Assembly: GCA_021292105.1 (NCBI GenBank)
Contig: CM037872.1
Coordinates: 8,915,291-8,979,290 of the forward strand
Reading direction: 5' to 3'
DNA: 64,000 bases
From: Anadara kagoshimensis
Lineage: Eukaryota > Mollusca > Bivalvia > Arcoida > Arcidae
Part shown: one piece after another, positions 1 to 46,055 of the stretch
How positions within the stretch are numbered: the first letter of the stretch is position 1
Layout: the number at the start of each line of letters is the position of its first letter
Notes under the pieces: model-generated
The model's input: only the letters and a program-made list of their open reading frames with translations
What the model was told of the DNA's origin: nothing
Databases searched by the model: none
Program-made: the position numbers and the translations under genes

Positions 1-250
1 AGTTTTAGCAGCCCCAATTGCAAAATTCCTCAGTTTATACTAAAAAACTAAGGTATATTCCTTCATGTAAAGTATTTTCTTCGCTAAATTCGGTAAAATA
101 TATTTTCGGTCCTTTGAGTATATCTTCAACATATTGATAACAATTTTGGTTTAATAATTTTGGTCCAAGCACTACTGGTGAGGAATTGTATTCTGAACCG
201 GCCTAATGCTGTAAAATTAAAGCTGGTATAATATGTAATTTATACAAATG
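1..250 (+). mobile_element. RZ (retrozyme-like) copy 1, degraded
   Basis: This is a copy of the RZ repeat running in the ribozyme-sense direction and probably cut by the left window edge. Its body matches the body between the two ribozymes at 8933 and 9252 when that locus is reverse-complemented, including the segments TTTTCAACAT-like, CAATTTTGGT and AACTGGTATAATATG-like. A mutated hammerhead lies at 168-210. It is old and not expected to be active. Confidence 0.75.
168..210 (+). ncRNA. degenerate hammerhead ribozyme (RZ copy 1)
   Basis: Stem I arm AGCACTA is followed by CTGGTGA in place of CTGATGA and by GGAATTGTATTC. The GAAA box reads GAAC and the GTC cleavage triplet is deleted before TAATGCT. 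Several invariant positions are lost, so self-cleavage is not expected. It is recognisable only by comparison with the intact copies near 9 kb. Confidence 0.7.
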
Positions 251-1770: not shown

Positions 1771-1798
1771 ATCAATTTAGATTTTTTATTTCCTAATA

Positions 1799-1945
1799 AT
1801 TACATATTGTACCAAATTAATTCTACGGCACTAGACAGCCGTTTCGAAATACACGTCCTCATCAGAAGCACTTTGAAGAAAGTTGTTACACCAAATCTTT
1901 TTTCAAGATGTTGAAAAGATACCCAAAGTACCAAAATATAATAGT
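1799..1945 (-). mobile_element. RZ (retrozyme-like) copy 2, partial
   Basis: One ribozyme-bearing end plus about 70 bp of RZ body (AAGATGTTGAAAAGATACCC, then CCAAAATATA). It lies just downstream of a family A copy. The rest of the monomer is absent. Confidence 0.7.
1828..1873 (-). ncRNA. hammerhead ribozyme, core kept, stems decayed (RZ copy 2)
   Basis: On the minus strand the core boxes CTGATGA and GAAAC and the GTC cleavage triplet are all present. Stem II (GGAC versus TTTC) pairs weakly. The 5' stem I arm (AGTGCTT) no longer complements the 3' arm (TAGTGC). Activity is therefore doubtful although the catalytic residues survive. Confidence 0.7.
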
Positions 1946-2229
1946 TTGCAAGAGGGATTGTTTTACAGCAGTATGTATGCATATAGATATACTATATATG
2001 ACCGAACCACTAAACGTAAGAAAATATGTCAATAATCTGATTGTTTCATATCGGATTGATTTCAATCCATAAATTTATGAAGCAGATGGATGATATATGA
2101 TGATTAATAACAAAAATACGGTTATTCATTATAAGACCACATGTAGTGTCTGTTATTGGAAGGATGCACTATTATTTAACCTTTAATCTCGCTTAATTTT
2201 CATGTTAATCTTCACAAATACAATACATA

Positions 2230-3984: not shown

Positions 3985-4145
3985 ACTCTAAATTACTCAA
4001 AAACTATATATTTTGGTCCATTGGGTATCTTTTCAACATCTTGAAAACAATTTTGGTTTCTTAATTTTGCTCCAAGCATTACTGATAAGGAATTGTATTC
4101 TGCAACGACGTCTATTGCTGTAAAATTAAAACTGGTATAATATGT
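3985..4145 (+). mobile_element. RZ (retrozyme-like) copy 3, partial
   Basis: RZ body segment (TTTTGGTCCATTGGGTATCT, then CTTTTCAACATCTTGAAAAC) leading into a ribozyme-like end and the AAAACTGGTATAATATGTA tail block. It runs in the ribozyme-sense direction. Confidence 0.7.
4075..4119 (+). ncRNA. degenerate hammerhead ribozyme (RZ copy 3)
   Basis: Stem I arms AGCATTA and TATTGCT still pair at six of seven positions and the GTC triplet is present. The core reads CTGATAA, so the invariant G is changed, and GAAAC is GCAAC. It should be inactive. Confidence 0.7.
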
Positions 4146-4411
4146 ATTAAGAACCAAGACGCAATCAAACTATTTGATTGACAAATGGCTGCAAATAGAC
4201 CGCTAAGGTACCAGATAAATATGTCGCTAAGGAATAACAAAAACATAAATTGGTCGCACACATACTGGGTCATAAAAAGGTCATTCTGGTGCTAGATAAA
4301 TGGAAAGAATAAACATAAGATTAGGAGATTCAGATGATTAGTATTTAGTATACCTTATCCCACTGATTTCCCCGGTGAAAATCCATGTGGAAGAACAACT
4401 ACTGTACTAAA

Positions 4412-6189: not shown

Positions 6190-6420
6190 TATATAATATG
6201 AAATTTCAGTTTGTTTCCATAAAGGCATATTCATATAAATAAAAATTAAGAAACTAAGGATTGCATAAGGGGGATTAGGTAAAATACATTTTTGTCTTTT
6301 TTTTAATTTCAACATTTCAAAAAATATTTGCATTTCCACATTTTTGGTCAGAGTACTACATGTGAGGAATTTTATTCCGAAACGACCATCTAGCACTGCA
6401 AAATTACGTCTGATTTAATA
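6190..6420 (+). mobile_element. RZ (retrozyme-like) copy 4, diverged
   Basis: Ribozyme-sense direction, strongly diverged body, with a mutated hammerhead at 6352-6397. The stretch after the ribozyme is duplicated in tandem (see 6391-6705), suggesting a shorter monomer variant of about 160 bp. Confidence 0.6.
6352..6397 (+). ncRNA. degenerate hammerhead ribozyme (RZ copy 4)
   Basis: Stem II is intact (GGAAT, loop, ATTCC) and GAAAC is kept. The CTGATGA box reads CATGTGA and the cleavage triplet GTC reads ATC. Stem I arms AGTACTA and TAGCACT have one mismatch. Loss of the CTGATGA box argues against activity. Confidence 0.65.
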
Positions 6421-8154: not shown

Positions 8155-8440
8155 ACTAAACATTATTTCCATGGTTATTTTGGATACAGAAACATGCGTA
8201 TCAACATTTTTGTGATGATTGCCATACTTTTTGATGGTTTTGTTAAGCCTTGACTTGCAATATTCATAGATCAATAAAAAACAAACAAACTAATCCATGT
8301 CCGAATCACAATCCAGAAGTAAAATAAAAACTTTGGAACTGAAAAGTTAGACACGCGAACTTCAACCAGGGAAGTGAGGCAGGGTGCTCCGAAAGGACAC
8401 GCACTTCCTGTTTAGCTAGCTACACCGTTACATGTGTAAT
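8155..8440 (-). mobile_element. family A, minus copy with joined 3' end
   Basis: The 3' region (8420 down to about 8275) ends at the TTTTTGAT-like terminus. It is joined to a protein-tail segment (CAAGGCTTAACAAAACC on the minus strand), the same joint as at 5813. Confidence 0.65.
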
Positions 8441-8899
8441 TAAAATTGTGAGTATGTTTTTGTAAACAACTTGCTATGTTGTCTACAGCTTCCGTTGTGG
8501 TAAAAAAAAAACTATATCATAGCGTACTAATTGTTATTGTAGAACAAATACAAAAAAGCATGAGGACCAGTTAAAGTGCGCCAAGTTTGGCCTGGCCGTT
8601 TGACCTTTAATTTAAATATTTAAACAAACATATTCGTTGTGTAATTTAGGCGCTATATAAAGTTAATATATTAGGATAGATGATAGCAATACTCGTTATC
8701 CAGTGTTTATGGTAATAAAACCTGCCTGCTGTCCTACCTAAATCACAGCCTATTAGCCCAATCAAATATTCAAATTTTAAAGGTCAAACAGCCAAGTCAA
8801 ACATGACGTTGCTGCTTAGAAACGAACTGTTGACGATACAAAAATGAAGTCAACACATAAAAATTTTAAAACAACAATACAATGTAAACTGATTTACTT
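8441..8899. other. no recognisable feature
   Basis: No supported frame, tRNA-like box or repeat match. Two inverted stretches around 8590 (GTTTGACC) and 8780 (GGTCAAAC) suggest a weak fold-back MITE, unproven. Confidence 0.4.
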
Positions 8900-8932
8900 A
8901 GTAATTACATCTTATACCAGTTTTATATTTAC

Positions 8933-8978
8933 AGCACTAGACGGCCGTTTCGGAATACAATTCCTCATCAGCAGTGCT
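8933..8978 (-). ncRNA. hammerhead ribozyme, type I, intact core
   Basis: Read 5' to 3' on the minus strand, the order is arm AGCACTG, CTGATGA, stem II GGAAT/ATTCC with loop TGT, then GAAA. Stem III is AC/GT closed by GGCC, followed by cleavage triplet GTC and arm TAGTGCT. Stem I pairs at all seven positions with one G-T wobble. All invariant core residues are present. The short stem III suggests cooperation between two ribozymes in a dimer, as known for short-stem-III hammerheads. Predicted cleavage follows the C of GTC. Confidence 0.9.
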
Positions 8979-9251
8979 TGGACCAAAATTATGAAACCAA
9001 AATTATTTTGAAGATGTTGAAAAGCTACCCAAAGGACAAAAATATAGCTAAGGAAAAACTTTGCATTAGGGAATATACCTTAGTTTTTGAGAAATTTCAA
9101 ATTTTAACTTGCAGGAAATTTAGACAATTATATTTCTGACAATAATACGGAAGTATTGCCTACTGAGTTTGTGATATCCTTGGGGCACCAGCCACCAGCA
9201 GAGATATCGGCTCAGGGGTTTAAATTAGATCTTATACCAGTTTTATTTTAC

Positions 9252-9297
9252 AGCACTAGACGGCCGTTTCGGAATACAATTCCTCATCAGTAGTGCT
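9252..9297 (-). ncRNA. hammerhead ribozyme, type I, intact core
   Basis: Identical to the motif at 8933-8978 except that the 5' stem I arm is AGCACTA, which pairs perfectly with TAGTGCT over seven positions. Core boxes, stem II, the short stem III and the GTC triplet are all intact. It lies 319 bp from its partner. Confidence 0.92.
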
Positions 9298-9427
9298 TGG
9301 ACCAAAATTATGAAACTAATACTAGAAAATTAACCATGAAAATTATAGACTGATTCGCACATTTTCATAAAAGAATTAACTACCAAGGACGTTCGGATAC
9401 AGATATAAACATCCATAATTCAATAGT

Positions 9428-9550
9428 ACACAGTCAAATATGTCTATAAAGGCCACCCAAGGGAACCAGTAAAAGTGGCCTTAACGGACAGGTGGCCTTT
9501 ATATACAGGTTCAAATAATATGAATAAAGAACAATTAGGATACAATTATA
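9428..9550 (+). mobile_element. dispersed repeat J, copy 2 (MITE-like)
   Basis: Starts CACAGTCAAATATGTCTATA, then AAGGCCACC and an inverted GGTGGCCTTTATATACAGG, and ends with GAATAAAGAACAATTAGGAT. It is the best copy of J in the window. The internal inverted GGCCACC/GGTGGCC pair would form a hairpin. Confidence 0.65.
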
Positions 9551-11191
9551 CTGCAAACTCAGATCTGTTTATTTATTGTACATTTTGTATTTTGTAAGTA
9601 TAAATTGTTGTTAATTTTCTATCATAAATGTTTTTAAAAAAAATTCAAAGTGTTGTTGGTTTGTTGGTTTTATGTCCTGTTATTTTTCCATTAAAGTTTA
9701 TTGCTGTCTGTAACATTAGAAAACTAATGTTCTAATAGTTGTCGTGTTGTGCAAACTGATCTATTTTAAATGCAGATTTAACTAACTTTGACTACCTTGA
9801 TGGGTTTTTTGAGGGGATCCTATATAAAATTCACAGATTTATTATTGAGACAGGGCAACTTTAATTCGTAGAAAACAGCACAATCCACACGTGCAAATAA
9901 TCATGACATATACAAATTCACATGTGCATAAAAAAGTTTGTAAAAAATCTACATCATGGCGATTAATTTTACTCACTCTTGAGATAAACTTCACAATTTA
10001 GAAAAAAAAGTTTTTAAAAAAGTTTTGATTTTTCAAATTGATATTTGTTAATAAATTTGAAATAAGCATTGTCTGTTCACATTCAGAAAAAGAAAGGGAT
10101 AAATTAATTTTTCGTAAAAAGTTCTCGAGTATGTTTAAAGTACACAGGGAATAAGAGGGGCCAAAAAGGTTGAAAATTACACTATTTCTTATTTGTATCA
10201 AACGAAAGACGATATTTGTTCTGTTAATGCCGACATTAACTCCGAATCTAATTGTTATTTATCTAACGGCAGGTGAACATTTAAAAGGTCAAAGGTCAAT
10301 CAAAATTTATGACGTAACATAACCTCTTTTTGCGTTGGGATACAACAGAACATCCGCTTGCATTGGTTAAGTGCATATCTGTCTGATTTTTTGCGTACTT
10401 TTTTCACGCGGAAGAATAAAATAACCCTTCATGTTATTTGTCTTTTGGTTCTGTTAAGTGTCGTTCCGCGCTAAGTAAACACAAAATGATTAAGTTACAT
10501 AGTGAGAGGCTGCTACTTAAAACGTACAATACTGACTCTTAAACTTAACAAAAGAGATATGCATTATCCCGGTTTAAAGATTAATATTTCAAAATTATAC
10601 AAATCAACTTTAAAAGGTTTGTTTTTTATATATTTTTTTAAAAAAGCAAACAATTGTTTTGGGTATTTTTTGCAAAAATAATCAAATTTAAATGACACAA
10701 AATTTTCATCTGATAAACTGCACAGCATGTGTGTCACGTTCAGTTAAACCATATCCATTCCACACGTGCAAGTTGCGCGTGTTCGATTGTCGTCTGCAAC
10801 CATGCGGACGTGTGTAGCTATTTTTCTCTGTATTATTTATTTGTAAATTAAGGTAAACTGCACGCCATTGTTTGCTCAGGGAAGGAATTAGGTGCATCGA
10901 CGTAAAATTTCTTCAGATTTAAATTTTTGAGAAGATCTTAACTTAACCGACTTCCTTATTGCCCTTCCGTCTAACAGACTGCGCATGACACCAGGAAGTA
11001 ACTGCTACACGGTTCCAACACCAAACATATGCATACACCTGTTGAAGCTATTTGCGGTTGAATCAATTAAAAATTAAATTAAAATATTATGAATTAATTT
11101 AGGTACATAATAGAGTTAGATGAAACGGATGCTTTACCATAAAACGCGGTAATTTTTGTACTCTTTCACTGGATATCGTTATATCTTGGAA

Positions 11192-20380: not shown

Positions 20381-20525
20381 TACAGTCCAACCTGGCTTTA
20401 AAGACCACCTCTATATAAGGGCCACCTGCTTATAAAGGTCAGTAGAATTGTATCCCAATTCTTCTTTTTCATATTATTAAAACCTATATATGAGGGCCAC
20501 CTGCCTATAAAGCCCACTTTTACTG
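20381..20525 (-). mobile_element. dispersed repeat J, minus copy
   Basis: Plus-strand reading is ACAGTCCAACCTGGCTTTAA at one side and TGCCTATAAAGCCCACTTTT at the other. Both GGGCCACC and its inverse neighbours occur, so it appears as two J ends facing each other. Confidence 0.55.
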
Positions 20526-21044: not shown

Positions 21045-21330
21045 AAGCGCGTGGCCTAGTGGTTAAGGCGTTGGACTCATGATTCGAAGGTCGTGGGTTC
21101 GATCCCTGGACCGGGCGATGTGTTGTGTCCTTGAGCAAGACACTTAATTTCACGTTGTTCCAGTTCACTCAGCTGAAAAATAAATGAGTACCAGCAAAAT
21201 GCTGGGGGTTAACCCTGCGATGGACCGGCGTCCCATTCAGGGGAGAGTCAGCGACTCTCAGTCGCTTAACGCCACCGAAACCGGGATAAGCTCCGGTCTG
21301 ATGGGCCTAATGGCTCGGGACAGACTTTAA
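21045..21330 (+). mobile_element. tRNA-headed SINE, type F
   Basis: The head resembles a tRNA more closely than the other SINEs here: GCGTGGCCTAGTGGTTAAGG (A box) and GGGTTCGATCCCTGGACCGG (B box). It continues with CCTTGAGCAAGACACTTAAT, CCAGTTCACTCAGCTGAAAA and ATGGACCGGCGTCCCATTCA blocks. The TTGAGCAAGACACTTAA stretch is, from general knowledge, shared by SINEs across many invertebrates. I do not assign a superfamily. The 3' end is near GGGACAGACTTTAACT. Confidence 0.85.
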
Positions 21331-24540: not shown

Positions 24541-24807
24541 GCAAAAGTTAGCCAGAGTAACGAGGCGCGAAAATAAGGCTTTTTAGTATATTTTAATTTA
24601 TTTCACTTGCAATTACAAATGTAAAATGAACTTGATCCGACGAGCATAAAATACATTTACGCTAATATCTTGAAATAACGATAACTTGCGTAAAAATTAA
24701 CTGACGCGACAATTTCCCAATTTCCTCATAGAATCCTCGAAATGCCGCTTAAAACAGTTGTAGTTCTAAATAAAATGAAATTATATAGTGAATAATTGTG
24801 TTGTTTA

Positions 24808-25085
24808 CAACATATTATATCAATTTTTATTTTACAGCACAAGACGGCCGTTTCGATTTACAATTCCTCATCAGTAGTGCTTGAACCAAAATTGTGAAAC
24901 CAAATCATTTTTCAAGATGTTGAAAAGATAACCAAAGGACCAAAATATATTATTATCAAATGTAACTTCTTTGAATGAGGGAGTATACTTAGTTTTAGAG
25001 GAATTTCAGATTTTACGAGCAGCAAATTTAAAAATAGTATATTTCTTTCAATAATACACAATTATTGCCTACTGAGTGTTTATAA
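24808..25085 (-). mobile_element. RZ (retrozyme-like) copy, one ribozyme end plus body
   Basis: Full-length body from the ribozyme through AAGATGTTGAAAAGATAACC, GGGAGTATACTTAG and AATTATTGCCTACTGAG. The second ribozyme that would close the monomer is missing, because the copy ends near 25085 in unrelated sequence. Confidence 0.75.
24836..24881 (-). ncRNA. hammerhead ribozyme, core intact, stem II broken
   Basis: On the minus strand CTGATGA, GAAAC, GGCC and GTC are all present. Stem I pairs at six of seven positions (AGCACTA with TTGTGCT). Stem II is GGAAT against AAATC, with two mismatches and a wobble, so folding is impaired. Confidence 0.8.
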
Positions 25086-27150: not shown

Positions 27151-27345
27151 TCGTTTTGAAACTGGTATGATATGAAATTTAAACATTTGTCGTTTTGAAA
27201 CTGGTATAATATGTAATTTAAACATTTATCGCTTGAAACTGGTATAATATGTCATTTAAACATTTGTTGTTTTGAAACTGGTATAATATGTAATTTAAAC
27301 CTTTGCTGGTGGATGTTTCCCAGAGATAACATGTCGGTGGTATAA
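27151..27345 (+). repeat. RZ body fragment with a 39-bp tandem repeat
   Basis: Four copies, at 27151, 27190, 27229 and 27267, of a 38-39 bp unit holding TTTTGAAACTGGTATAATATG and AATTTAAACATTTG. This is the RZ segment just beyond the 3' stem I arm. It is followed by GCTGGTGGATGTTTCCCAG, the next part of the RZ body. No ribozyme core is present. Confidence 0.7.
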
Positions 27346-28084: not shown

Positions 28085-28160
28085 TATAAAAGCACTAGAC
28101 GGTCGTTTTGGAACACACCACCCCACCAGCAGCGCCCCGGACCAAAATTGTGAAGCTATT
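28085..28160 (-). mobile_element. RZ ribozyme end with clustered base changes
   Basis: Retains AGCACTAGACGG at one side and GGACCAAAATTGTGAAG at the other as read on the plus strand. The 30 bases between (28111-28140) contain no T at all. See the ribozyme entry and the findings. Confidence 0.75.
28091..28138 (-). ncRNA. destroyed hammerhead motif with A-to-G-type cluster
   Basis: Compared with the intact motif, eight of nine plus-strand T positions in the ribozyme core are C, which on the ribozyme-sense strand is A to G. CTGATGA became CTGGTGG and the arm AGCACTA became GGCGCTG. The flanking T residues outside the hairpin are unchanged. It cannot be active. Confidence 0.7.
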
Positions 28161-28224
28161 TTTTATATACATCACTGCTGTACTACGTTTGGGGGGAGGC
28201 TTTTTTTTTTTTACAAAAACTCTA

Positions 28225-31330: not shown

Positions 31331-32689
31331 ATATTATAATTCAACTCTCCTTTGTTTCAAGCATTAAGTTAGAACCCCTCTATCACTTTAATATGAATGG
31401 TTTAGCTGTAAGTGACGTCATCTTTAAATGTATGAATTTGTGTGCCATATAGATGTTCTAATTTTCCTTGCCAAGGCTGCATTTTTGTTTAAAATTGTTG
31501 ATTCGTTGCTGAAAAATTCTATAAATTGAATGAAAAAGTAAAAAATAAATATAAAATATTCTTTTGTTTTGGAAAATTGAACGAACTGGGCACACTAAAT
31601 ATAATTCATGCGGAAATTCATAATGCAAATACACATACATGAACTTGGTAGAATCTGTATAGCATATCTCTCCTTACTGACAATCAGAAATAAATAAATG
31701 ACATATAAAAAAACAACAATTAAAATTGAAATAAACTCGAGCAATTAAAATCGATCCATGCGCCAGGCTGCTGAGTATACCGTTGTTCTTAATTAACTAA
31801 ATATGATGGTCCGGCGTTTGATGTCCCGTCTCTCGTACCGGCTGTTGACACCTATTCAGCTATCAAACCTATTTTTTAATGTAACATACGGTAGCCGTAT
31901 TATATTCGAGGTATGTAAAATTTTATACTATTGACAACACTATAACGGGACAAGGGGTTCCCAAGGGAAACACGGAATTCATTCATTAAACCAAAAGGAA
32001 AATATTTCCCAAATAAGTACTACTTTTAAGTTTTTACAAACACCAATTTTTTTTAAATATCAGGATTTTGAAAATAAAAGATGAAATTAAAAACGATTTT
32101 GTTTTAAATTATTCCCCTATAAAACCTCCCCATTCTCAGAAGCCGTATTGATTTCGCGAATGTATAGTATTTGTTAACACCAAGCTGTTGCGCTTCTACA
32201 CTAGAGGAATCAATCCTTTGCCTAAAAACGCAAATATCAATTTTAATACATATATTTCATGAAACATCCAAAGTGTTTTGGAATTATTTTTTGTCAGCAT
32301 TGCGTCACATGTGTGCGCATAGGACAAGCTGTTGACAAAGGTTACATGCGCATAGGGGCGTGACTGGCACGTGTATATTAAACTTTGAAAAAGGAGACGA
32401 TAGGTTAATTAAGTTGCCGAAGTTTGTAGATAAGCTATTGAATGAGAAATTTTAAGGTTTAATTAGGTTTATATTATATTATTATGAAAGAATTAACAAC
32501 ATTATCGCAAATAAATCCGCAAATTGCTAGTCTACGTGTATATCGTAATTATTATTTTTGTAGTGAATAGGTTCATTCAAGCAGAATATTAAAAAGAGTC
32601 TGGTAATATATATTTTATATATTGACAAAATCCATTGTAGACAGCAGTAAAGTACATCTAAACTCTTTATTATATATTATCGCTATATA
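31331..32689. other. no recognisable feature
   Basis: About 1.36 kb, no supported gene or named repeat. Confidence 0.45.
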
Positions 32690-32719
32690 TATAACATATT
32701 ATACCAGTTTTATTTTTAC

Positions 32720-32752
32720 AACACTCGAGGGCCGTTTAGGAAAGTAGTGCTT
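32720..32752 (-). ncRNA. hammerhead remnant, internal deletion
   Basis: As read on the plus strand: AACACTCGAGGGCCGTTTAG, then GAAAGTAGTGCTT. The ATACAATTCCTCATCAG part is missing, and so are stem II and the CTGATGA box. Confidence 0.65.
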
Positions 32753-32865
32753 AGACCAAAATTTTGAAACCAAATATTTTTCAAAGATGTTGAAAAAATA
32801 CGAAGGAAAAATATATTTTTCCAAATTTAGCTAAGGAAATAATCGCATTAGGGAGTATACCTTCC

Positions 32866-32879
32866 TTTTTTTTTTTTGT

Positions 32880-32916
<37 letters not shown>
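32866..32916 (+). repeat. poly-T tract inside RZ body
   Basis: T run broken only by GTG at 32878-32880. Confidence 0.95.
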
Positions 32917-32917
<1 letters not shown>

Positions 32918-33080
32918 AGAAATTTTTGGTTTTATCTAGCAGCAAATTTAGACGATAGTGTATTTCTAAAAAATGCACATAATTTTTGCCTACTGAGTTT
33001 GAGTTGCCTTTGGAAAAACATCCATCAGCAGAGATACAAGCTTAATGGTTCATATTACATATTATAACAGTGTTAATTTT

Positions 33081-33114
33081 ACAACACTAGACTTCCGTTC
33101 CTCATCAGAAGTGA
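33081..33114 (-). ncRNA. hammerhead remnant, internal deletion
   Basis: CTGATGA and the stem I and GTC side are visible on the minus strand. The segment with GAAA, stem III and one side of stem II has been deleted (plus strand: CACTAGACTTCCGTTCCTCA). Confidence 0.65.
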
Positions 33115-33305
33115 TTAGACAAAAATTGTGAAACCAATTTTTTTCAAAGTGTTTGTTTTCACCTCACCTTTCAGTTATTTTAATAAGGGTTATATCAATA
33201 TAATAACTTTGATAACTTGGACCTTCTGTAATTTTGTTTTTGATAATTCTAATTGATTAAGTTGAAAATTTGTCCAAAAAATTATCAATAGGTATGACCA
33301 ATAAC

Positions 33306-33326
33306 ATATATATATATATATATATA
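33306..33326 (+). repeat. (TA)n microsatellite
   Basis: Short AT run directly at the 5' edge of the Penelope-like homology. Confidence 0.95.
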
Positions 33327-33330
33327 CATC

Positions 33331-34432
33331 AAAACTAAGAATCGATTTGGAAACCAATTTTACGATTATATATCTACACAATGGAAACGGTACTTAGACG
33401 ACTGTTTTATATTTGGATAGAACAGCCGAAGACCTCGAGCTATTCCATCAATTAATAAATACATTACACCCTTCCATATCTTTTACAATGGAAAAGCATG
33501 ATCGTGAACTTCCGTTTCTCGATATTAATATTATGAAAGAAGGAAGGAAGTTAATTACTGATGTGTTTTACAAACAAACTGATACACACCAGTATCTTAA
33601 TTTCTTGTCGTGTCACCCTTCCCATACAAAACGTAATATCCCATACTGTATGGCACGAAGGCTTTGCACCATCATTTCCGAACAACAACTTAGAAACACG
33701 CGACTGATAGAATTAAAATCTTTTCTTCTGAAACAAAAATATCCGGTAAAATTAATCGACGACAGTATCCAAAAAGTAAAAAATATTAGTGCATTTGAAC
33801 TTAGAAAACAACACCATAAAATTATTAACGAAGATCTAATACCTTGCGTCACAACACACGATCCCAACATCACTAATATTTTCAGTATTATTAAAACAAA
33901 CCTGCCTATACTCCATCGGAGTACTAAATTTAAGGAACTCATAAAACCAAGTGATATTATCCACAGTCGCAGACAACCAAAAAACTTAAAGAAACACCTA
34001 ACAAAAGCAAAGTTTAAGTCTGTTACCGAAGAAAAGAAAGTGGAAAGATGTAAAGACCCGAGATGTGGCACATGTGGTTTCCTGACCACTGGGAAAGAAC
34101 TCCATCTCAAAAATGGCATGGTTTTCACAGTCAAATCAAACATGAGCTGTGACACAAAAAATGTCCTGTATTGCATCACATGCGCAGGATGCGGGGAAAA
34201 CTATATTGGACAGACGGGAAATTCACTACGTGAACGAACTCGTATTCATAAACAACAGATCCGACAGCCGGAAACCCGCCAAATCCCGCTAAGTGAACAC
34301 TTGGACAATTGTGCAGGGGGTAACTTTAAAATTATGCCATTTTACAAATTCATAGATGACAATCAAAACTTTAGAATAGAGAAAGAAATTTATTTTACCA
34401 GTATTTTCAAAGCAAAACTCAACGAACGATGA
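33331..34432 (+). pseudogene. Penelope-like element (PLE): end of reverse transcriptase plus GIY-YIG endonuclease, 5'-truncated, frameshifted
   Basis: Homology starts in one frame at 33331 (NRFGNQFYDYISTQW) and reaches WKRYLDDCFIF at 33382-33414, which carries the YLDD catalytic motif. A one-base frameshift at about 33410-33416 then moves it to the long frame. From 33416 that frame gives 338 unbroken residues to a TGA at 34430-34432. Along it are FLDINI (near residue 35) and YKQTDTHQYLNFLSCHPSH (53-71). A cysteine cluster CKDPRCGTC (213-221) follows, then the GIY-YIG region: LYCITC (252-257), NYIGQTGNSLRER (263-275), and IEKEIYFTSIFKAKLNE (322-338) with the Glu and Asn expected of the nuclease. 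This domain order and the zinc-binding-type cysteines fit animal Neptune-like PLEs (family knowledge). The N-terminal half of the reverse transcriptase is missing, so it is a dead insertion. The first frame opens only with TTG, so no genuine start is claimed. Confidence 0.9.

Positions 34433-34632: not shown

Positions 34633-34661
<29 letters not shown>
34633..34661 (+). repeat. (TA)n microsatellite
   Basis: Uninterrupted AT run after the Penelope-like 3' region. With 33306-33326 it brackets the insertion. Confidence 0.95.
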
Positions 34662-35410: not shown

Positions 35411-35474
35411 TTCACTTAACTAGAGAAAATTTACAACGTTTTTTTTTACAATACAATATCAGTTTTCATTTTAC

Positions 35475-35520
35475 AGCACCAGTCGGCCGTTTCGGAATAC
35501 AATTCCTCATCAGTAGTGCT
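35475..35520 (-). ncRNA. hammerhead ribozyme with mutated cleavage triplet
   Basis: CTGATGA, perfect stem II and GAAAC are intact and stem I pairs fully (AGCACTA with TGGTGCT, one wobble). The cleavage triplet GTC reads GAC, which also breaks the pair that closes stem III. GAC is not a usual hammerhead cleavage site, so activity is unlikely. Confidence 0.85.
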
Positions 35521-35820
35521 TGAAACAAAATTCTGAAACCATTTTTTTTCAAAACGTTAAAAAGAAAACTAAAACACACAAAATATATTTTACCAAATTT
35601 AGCGAGGGAAAAACTTTGCATGAGGGAGTATACCTGAGTTTAATTTTTTTTTAAAGAAATTTCAGACCTAAACTAGCAGCATATTTTGACAATGGTAAAT
35701 TTCTGACAATAATACACAGTTATTTGCCTACTGAGTTTGTGATATCCTCGGAGATATATCCACCAGCAGAGGTACTGTCTCAATGGTTTAAATTACATAT
35801 TATACAAGTTTTAATTTTAT

Positions 35821-35834
35821 AGCACTAGACGGCC
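35821..35834 (-). ncRNA. hammerhead fragment
   Basis: Only AGCACTAGACGGCC on the plus strand (3' stem I arm, GTC, part of stem III) remains before unrelated sequence. Confidence 0.7.
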
Positions 35835-44755: not shown

Positions 44756-45534
44756 TCATGAATGGGAAAACCAAAGCATTATGGCATGTACATATGTGCA
44801 TTATAATTACCCGGCGACCACTCGCATATGTAATTCTAAATCCGGTTTAAAACTAGCGCGTGTATTGCAATTGGACCGTGCATTTCTATCTCGCGACCTG
44901 TTGAAGGCGGAACAAAAATCTAAAATTAAATAGAAATGTACGTTTTTGTAATTTATTTGCAAAAAGATTATAATATCAATTTTAATTATTTATATCTTTT
45001 TTGCAACCTACGCATTCAAATCCGTGATATATGCTCCACGTGTCGATGAATCTCAGAGAGGTTATCTAAAATAACGAATTGACATTCAAATCACGTGATA
45101 GCCAAGATGGTTTTCAAATGTATAAAAAAAATTAAACGTTAACAGAAATTCGATACATTTTTACCTCGTCTTTAAATATAGCCTAATTATAATAATTTTA
45201 ATCGGCATTTTGACTAAAATGTTGATATGACCATTTAGTTGCTTAATATTTCGTGTTTTTAAATTGCGGTTTATAATTAAGCTTTCAAAATTTGAATTGT
45301 AAGTACAATTTATCAGTTAATTATGATAATTTGACCATTTTTGGTCATTTTGCTGTTTTGCTATCAATTCAAATACATCTGCCCTACTAAAGATAACCTC
45401 TTATAAACCGCCTATTATTAGAAATATATTACCATTTAACAGAGATAGAATGTCACTAGATATTATCAAATGTACAAATAATTGCAAGATCCAAAGAGGT
45501 AATTTGACTTATATTTCCTGGGACGTATAGGACA
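44756..45534. other. no recognisable feature
   Basis: AT-rich, no supported gene or named repeat up to the minisatellite. Confidence 0.4.
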
Positions 45535-46055
45535 AAATCCAAAATATTTCTTATAAAGCACCAAAGAAAATGTATGTATAGGACAAAATCCAAAATATTT
45601 CTTATAAAGCACCAAAGAAAATGTATGTATAGGACAAAATCCAAAATATTTCCTATAAAGCGCCAAAGAAAATGTATGTATAGGACAAAATCCAAAATAT
45701 TTCTTATAAAGCACCAAAGAAAATGTATGTATAGGACAAAATCCAAAATATTTCTTATAAAGCACCAAAGAAAATGTATGTATAGGACAAAATCCAAAAT
45801 ATTTCCTATAAAGCACCAAAGAAAATGTATGTATAGGACAAAATCCAAAATATTTCCTATAAAGCGCCAAAGAAAATGTATGTATAGGACAAAATCCAAA
45901 ATATTTCTTATAAAGCGCCAAAGAAAATGTATGTATAGGACAAAATCCAAAATATTTCTTATAAACCACCAAAGAAAATGTATGTATAGGACAAAATTCA
46001 AAATATTTCTTATAAAGCGCCAAAGAAAACGTATGTATAGGCCAAGATTCAAGAA
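45535..46055 (+). repeat. 51-bp minisatellite, about ten units
   Basis: The unit contains ATGTATGTATAGGACAAAAT, CCAAAATATTT and ATAAAGC(A/G)CCAAAGAAA. Because 51 is a multiple of three and the unit has no stop in three of the six frames, frames of about 170-213 codons stay open on both strands. Variation at two positions (TTATAAA/CTATAAA and GCACC/GCGCC) changes amino acids in every open frame, so coding selection is not visible. Regulatory signals were not seen. Confidence 0.95.

Follow-up and report, generated by a model that had tools for sequence, protein, structure and literature searches.

A dimeric, retrozyme-like hammerhead element in Anadara kagoshimensis and the usual 3' end of its genomic family

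The evidence supports reading one short element in the genome of Anadara kagoshimensis as a dimeric, non-coding, retrozyme-like hammerhead element of an animal genome. This element, hereafter copy A, lies in the 64-kb stretch of DNA that was analysed as a whole (the window). It is not rare, being a member of an abundant family in which its 319-nt unit is shorter than usual. Genomic copies of the family are not delimited by the hammerhead cleavage sites, and most end 33-42 nt beyond the last of these. We think it probable that the family belongs to the metazoan-type (non-LTR) retrozymes and is copied through an RNA circle on which reverse transcription starts internally. The type of element is already published, while this member of it is new. 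A fixed 3' end as a rule for metazoan retrozymes also appears to be new, albeit provisionally: no description was found in the paper sections, titles and abstract openings that were searched.

Copy A carries two minus-strand hammerheads spaced 319 bp apart, and in both the core CTGATGA...GAA...GTC is complete. Since the open helix is stem I, both are type I hammerheads. Stem I has 7 bp, with one G-U pair in the downstream hammerhead, and stem II has 5 bp. Stem III has only 2 bp and is capped by a palindromic GGCC tetraloop, and stem and loop together (ACGGCCGU) are palindromic over their whole length and hence self-complementary. The end repeats of copy A, 97-98 bp long, differ by three mismatches and one 1-bp gap, and it is one of these mismatches that converts a stem I A-U pair to G-U. 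The GC content of the unit is 0.354. The parts of the element are as follows.

8903..9319, minus strand: copy A, a 1.3-unit dimeric retrozyme insertion (alignment to its own repeated unit)
9253..9296, minus strand: hammerhead 1, type I, cleavage expected at 9259/9258 (RF00163 and descriptor)
8934..8977, minus strand: hammerhead 2, type I, cleavage expected at 8940/8939 (RF00163 and descriptor)
8940..9258, minus strand: 319-nt monomer expected from double cleavage (spacing of the two C17 residues)
8903..8939, minus strand: 3' tail of copy A, reaching 37 nt beyond the last cleavage site, where copies of the family usually end (alignment)

The first-pass annotation, made from the letters alone, had described two complete minus-strand hammerheads 319 bp apart in a non-coding element at 8900-9322, and had proposed a covariance model as a check. 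The hammerheads were borne out. A strict hammerhead descriptor gave two matches in the window, both in copy A, and five turned up in total when both strands of 100 random 64-kb sequences from a first-order Markov model were scanned as a control. In an Rfam search of 381 bases with laxer filters, the two motifs were the top two matches, and Hammerhead_1 (RF00163) was the best family for both. The scores, 28.1 bits (E 5.8e-5) for 9253-9296(-) and 27.0 bits (E 1.3e-4) for 8934-8977(-), lie below the gathering cut-off of 34, and the E-values refer to 381 bases only. Rfam cmscan at the gathering cut-off over the full 64 kb returned no hammerhead, its sole match being a tRNA, and none of the 10 matches at E<=10 over 2.2 kb was a hammerhead. 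No ORF longer than 55 aa (ATG, GTG or TTG starts) overlaps the element, in keeping with the non-coding claim, and local alignment to a head-to-tail series of its own unit places its limits at 9319-8903 (phases 258 to 36 of the unit), in close agreement with those first drawn.

Taken on its own, each hammerhead of copy A is predicted to misfold, the catalytic folds having -7.8 and -7.5 kcal/mol against -12.3 and -14.4 kcal/mol for the lowest-energy folds. The lowest-energy co-fold of the pair, by contrast, is exactly a dimeric hammerhead joined via ACGGCCGU, at -34.2 kcal/mol. Because of this difference, dimeric cleavage of copy A RNA looks likelier than single cleavage, on energies that leave tertiary contacts out of account. 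Axolotl hammerheads with a weak stem III are reported to cleave much better as dimers (PMC7229834). In the predicted circular fold of the 319-nt monomer 61% of the bases are paired, and the circle is no more stable than its shuffles (-55.1 vs -55.8 +/- 4.8, z 0.15). Covariation within the family is nearly absent, as the pairs hardly vary, and it neither supports nor weakens the hammerhead.

Blastn and profile searches found nine copies or relics of the family in the window, copy A included. Besides copy A, two of them, B at 1.10 units and F at 1.37, exceed one unit and the other six fall short of it; copy A alone passes the strict descriptor. The other eight are listed below.

35456..35834, minus strand: copy B, 1.1 units, one hammerhead, U16.1 changed to A
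32688..33153, minus strand: copy F, decayed dimeric copy, 1.37 units
24803..25077, minus strand: copy C, 5'-truncated, 0.85 unit, decayed stem II
23..245, plus strand: copy D, 5'-truncated, decayed
4007..4150, plus strand: copy E, 5'-truncated, decayed
1798..1968, minus strand: copy G, 5'-truncated, decayed
6273..6419, plus strand: copy H, decayed relic (E 5e-17)
28091..28165, minus strand: copy I, decayed relic (E 1.6e-9)

Apart from these, a 39-bp unit that includes the retrozyme tail (AAACTGGTATAATATGTAATTTAAAC) is repeated four times in tandem at 27151-27305, and retrozyme-like sequence comes after it. This is apparently a small satellite derived from a retrozyme 3' end, and the tail tandem array (item J, 27198-27301) was left out of the count of nine.

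The genome searched is an assembly of 1,115,223,567 bases (1.115 Gb) in 36 contigs. It contains the exact hammerhead core pattern 4374 times and a 20-nt tail pattern 5672 times, with no match to the reversed control of either. Of 1580 first-look candidates obtained with a 156-nt query, the 40 that were scored and listed share 94-100% identity with it. Tandem matches are spaced 337-339 bp apart, and in six arrays with 22 units the unit length is 326-340 bp (337-339 bp in 18 of the 22); the longest array among those sampled has 7.2 units. The nine window copies and relics, the 4374 cores and the tandem arrays thus uphold the retrozyme-like dimeric reading of the first-pass annotation. They also show the family to be abundant, and the 319-nt unit of copy A is shorter than the usual 337-339 bp.

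Core, stem I and stem II are all kept in 75 of 138 standard-length hammerheads from the sampled loci and the window, a sample chosen largely for intact cores and with a few overlapping fetches counted twice. With double counts removed, the lengths of 79 copies range from 0.2 to 7.2 units: 14 have less than 0.5 unit, 25 have 0.5-1, 27 have 1-2 and 13 have more than 2. At least one unit is present in 40 of the 79, and in 12 of 46 copies of the chromosome-C1 set, which was picked only by the exact core. A search of viral contigs for relatives of the element found none. Three matches in contigs of other genomes were bacterial records in which no matching stem I was seen on reading, and they were rejected as relatives.

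To map the ends without imposing any, every copy was aligned to a head-to-tail series of one real unit. Of 78 3' ends placed in the host sample, 66 fall at phase 33-42 of 337, a range picked after the data were seen, where 2.3 would be expected if ends were uniform. The proportion is 39/46 in the core-picked loci of chromosome C1 and 27/32 in the top-scoring loci. The remaining 12 ends are at phases 17, 19, 24, 27, 28, 29, 44, 45, 47, 187, 208 and 323, the one at 208 belonging to a copy interrupted by another copy (locus L053). Six of the nine window copies end at phase 36-41, and the others (B, H and I) at 25, 14 and 7. Both the C1 and the top-scoring sets were picked by hammerhead-containing sequence, which excludes copies that stop within the hammerhead; a set picked by the tail alone partly offsets this. 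All 12 of its loci align to the unit (L106 over the tail alone); nine end at phase 37-47, in a pick that itself favours ends beyond 36, and three extend beyond the fetched stretch.

The 5' starts, on the other hand, are scattered round the unit. With double counts removed, none of 78 lies within 5 nt of the cleavage site (0/80 before removal, with 2.6 expected and P 0.07 for none), in a test to which only the 40 copies of at least one unit contribute, as sets with intact hammerheads cannot show a 37-nt copy. One locus of the 12 in the tail-picked set (L099) starts at about the cleavage site. Duplicates were judged by eye from identical flanks or overlapping fetches and dropped (L021, L032, L036, L039, L048, L059, L062 and L085), and further overlapping fetches (L045-L047, L055 and L066) were left out, as were alignments scoring below 120 and ends or starts 30 nt or less from a locus border. 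An overlap of L050 and L051 had double-counted two copies; their removal left 79 copies and 78 5' starts, with the 3' ends still at 66/78.

A common 3' end inside the unit, together with a junction that is copied through, implies a template joined at the junction and a single starting site of reverse transcription, which is either internal or at an RNA end. A linear hammerhead-cut monomer ends at phase 0 and so does not explain this 3' end, while a circle does. More than one turn of reverse transcription and a fixed internal start would suit both a circular template and the internal initiation reported for one Penelope-like element (PLE). The scenario that we propose begins with an RNA spanning both hammerheads, which would cleave itself, mainly as a dimeric hammerhead via the palindromic stem III. 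Cleavage would release a monomer of 319 nt (337-339 nt in most array units), to be circularised by a host RNA ligase. A trans-acting reverse transcriptase, most likely of the Penelope type, would then initiate at one fixed position inside the circle, some 37 nt downstream of the ligated junction, and proceed 5'-ward over the junction and round the circle, stopping at variable points. The resulting DNA copies would be partial, dimeric or multimeric and would share a single 3' end.

A PLE reverse transcriptase is reported to initiate internally, downstream of the PLE's own hammerhead, and genomic tails match those starts (PMC11167929). The insertion end found here, which is likewise fixed downstream of the hammerhead and inside the transcribed unit (66/78 ends in a 10-nt range), is compatible with mobilisation by a PLE, without being proof of it. 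It counts against a PLE partner that no match to the tail was seen in the PLE fragment of the window or in the flanks fetched at three other PLE loci (three on the 3' side, two on the 5' side); all 12 tail sites fetched belong to the retrozyme family. PLEs have also been put forward as a strong candidate for the mobilisation of metazoan retrozymes, in a report that leaves the primer undecided between target DNA and a small RNA (PMC7229834). We are cautious about the circle because PMC11167929 describes unprocessed RNA as the main substrate and reports that mutating the hammerhead left insertion in vitro unaffected. Multimeric RNA that stays uncut would span the junction too, which counts against the need for a circle.

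An uncut template is likewise at the heart of another explanation. The fixed 3' end might be that of a linear, multi-unit transcript, produced by cleavage and polyadenylation about 20 nt downstream of an ATTAAA or AATAAA hexamer; a LINE-like reverse transcriptase would start there, and the hammerheads would be a by-product or even reduce mobility. Among 66 copies, 46 do have such a hexamer close to the 3' end, and in 36 of the 46 it stops 18-21 nt short of that end; multi-unit source loci are present in the genome, and copy B of the window has an A9 run in its 3' flank. Nevertheless, none of the 66 host-sample copies (window copies being outside this count) has a run of six or more A within 15 nt beyond the 3' end. 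Moreover, array units are homogeneous, and the same class is reported to yield abundant circles in mussel (PMC7229834). We consider this explanation unlikely and continue with the circle as the preferred template.

Within the six arrays, units are 99.1% identical (40 pairs), compared with 95.6% between arrays (191 pairs; 22 units overall). The simplest reading is that each array stems from one monomer via more than one turn of reverse transcription on the circle. The likeness within arrays could also result from unequal exchange in DNA: 26 minor variants inside arrays are private and 11 occur in another array too, and the variants common to several arrays are harder to reconcile with an origin from a single monomer. 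The homogeneity of units in the tandem arrays would agree, too, with an ordinary satellite that spread at the DNA level and in which the hammerheads are passive. This we hold to be highly improbable, as dispersed copies share one usual 3' end, have scattered 5' starts and are inserted into other repeats, once inside another copy (L053), all of which is predicted by retrotransposition and not by DNA amplification.

As for target sites, duplications exceeded the 95% null in 5 of 76 copies, about chance level. Copy B has a possible flanking duplication of about 17 bp (p 0.0015 and 0.0025 in two tests, for one copy of nine), which was not seen with tighter offsets, where there was no overall excess of duplications either. 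Signals at L015, L023 and L052 were discounted, as these loci appear, on our own reading, to sit in tandem repeats. At positions 1251-1795 of L053, one retrozyme copy is inserted in another in opposite orientation, so that the target site lies within known sequence; by our reading of the junction, this nested insertion is compatible with a duplication of 2-5 bp. The flanks of copies are as AT-rich as the genome, and slightly more so at the junction, with a T-run of the element itself contributing to the count there. Rotifer PLE insertions are described as having 8-10-bp duplications in some cases and none in others (PMC3846280).

The window also contains a 5'-truncated PLE fragment at 33340-34432(+), with a GIY-YIG domain and 57% identity to its best protein match. 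The named relatives of its protein all come from molluscs; most are bivalves (Saccostrea, Mytilus, Pinctada, Crassostrea and Ostrea), joined by Haliotis and Octopus. The fragment is bounded by (AT)n tracts at 33306-33334 and 34633-34661, which suggests an insertion into microsatellite DNA, and the 3' flanks fetched at other PLE loci also enter TA-rich tracts, as we read them.

Considering that this fragment sits between copies F and B and that PLEs are reported to have hammerheads and tails of their own (PMC11167929, PMC3846280), one might suppose that there is no independent retrozyme at all, and that the copies are pieces of a PLE, the hammerheads of its pseudo-LTRs persisting as solo repeats. 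Copies F and B, however, are antisense to the PLE ORF. At three further loci, out of 93 PLE matches, the flanks are unlike the unit (best E 0.06), and in these flanks and the window fragment relaxed patterns found no hammerhead and there was no retrozyme-like tail or unit similarity. Such flanks disfavour PLEs as owners of the hammerheads. Furthermore, stem III is present here, while the minimal type I hammerheads of PLEs are described as usually without it (PMC7761336), and the short units form head-to-tail arrays. Among the explanations considered, we find this one the least probable, and we retain an independent retrozyme family for which a PLE may supply the enzyme.

The closest resemblance in known systems is to metazoan retrozymes, for which circular RNA has been reported, with repeats of 350-390 bp in mussel (PMC7229834). 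As a class, these elements lack a PBS and a PPT, have target-site duplications of more than 4 bp where they have any, and are expressed as linear and circular RNA, the circle being described as highly self-paired. Copy A shares with them the type I hammerhead with a full core, the lack of coding capacity and the low GC, and its family consists of repeats within the range of about 150-450 bp, in dimers and longer tandem arrays. Like the non-LTR retrozymes of Mytilus galloprovincialis, it combines type I hammerheads with tandem copies, a GC content below 50% and the co-occurrence of PLEs; about 5000 hammerheads per genome are given for that species (PMC7229834), compared with 4374 exact cores here. 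The unit differs in length (mostly 337-339 bp, 319 in copy A), and the 3'-end rule is put forward here. Hammerhead repeats of newt and axolotl have units of about 330-350 bp and a weak, tetraloop-closed stem III suited to dimeric cleavage; they come from another phylum, and copy A combines a 2-bp stem III like that of HHR_Amex2 with a perfect 5-bp stem II (PMC7229834).

PLEs such as Poseidon of Anolis (PMC11167929) and those of Adineta vaga (PMC3846280) show a genomic tail, 5' truncation and partial tandems, as the present family does, and the internal start downstream of the hammerhead described for Poseidon (PMC11167929) is the one that we propose here. Unlike PLEs, which encode a reverse transcriptase and GIY-YIG, copy A has no ORF above 55 aa; a PLE tail of 31 bp has been reported (PMC3846280), and the distance from cleavage site to end, 33-42 nt here, differs from that of PLEs. 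Plant LTR retrozymes likewise have a non-coding body flanked by two hammerheads, with circular RNA published for the class, but they are described with type III hammerheads in LTRs of about 350 bp, a PBS, a PPT and 4-bp target-site duplications (PMC7761336), whereas the hammerheads of copy A are type I and its repeated ends measure about 98 bp.

More tentatively than for this family, we suggest that a Penelope-type reverse transcriptase may copy circles of animal retrozymes in general to DNA, using a dedicated start site inside the circle, just past the hammerhead junction, and then rolling round the circle. If this is true, the fixed genomic tail is a footprint of priming that shows how a self-made RNA circle becomes a DNA element. 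For the return of metazoan retrozymes to DNA, a family of thousands of copies with a sharp 3' end offers a testable priming-site footprint; it can be checked in mussel, coral and axolotl genomes by computation alone.

Several other repeats of the window deserve a comment. A tRNA-like sequence at 21050-21113 (30.3 bits in Rfam, with no call by ARAGORN) is possibly the head of a SINE. Positions 8300-8450 belong to a different repeat family (CTTTCGGAGCACCC...), which matches 17 more places in the window, with both strands represented. A short repeat at 9420-9560, also present at 2224-2348 and 20440-20525, has internal inverted arms (GGCCACC...GGTGGCC) and is possibly a small hairpin-type element. 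Finally, a 51-bp tandem repeat at 45525-46052 comprises 10.4 copies and leaves three reading frames open (194-218 aa), and it is most likely a satellite, not a gene.
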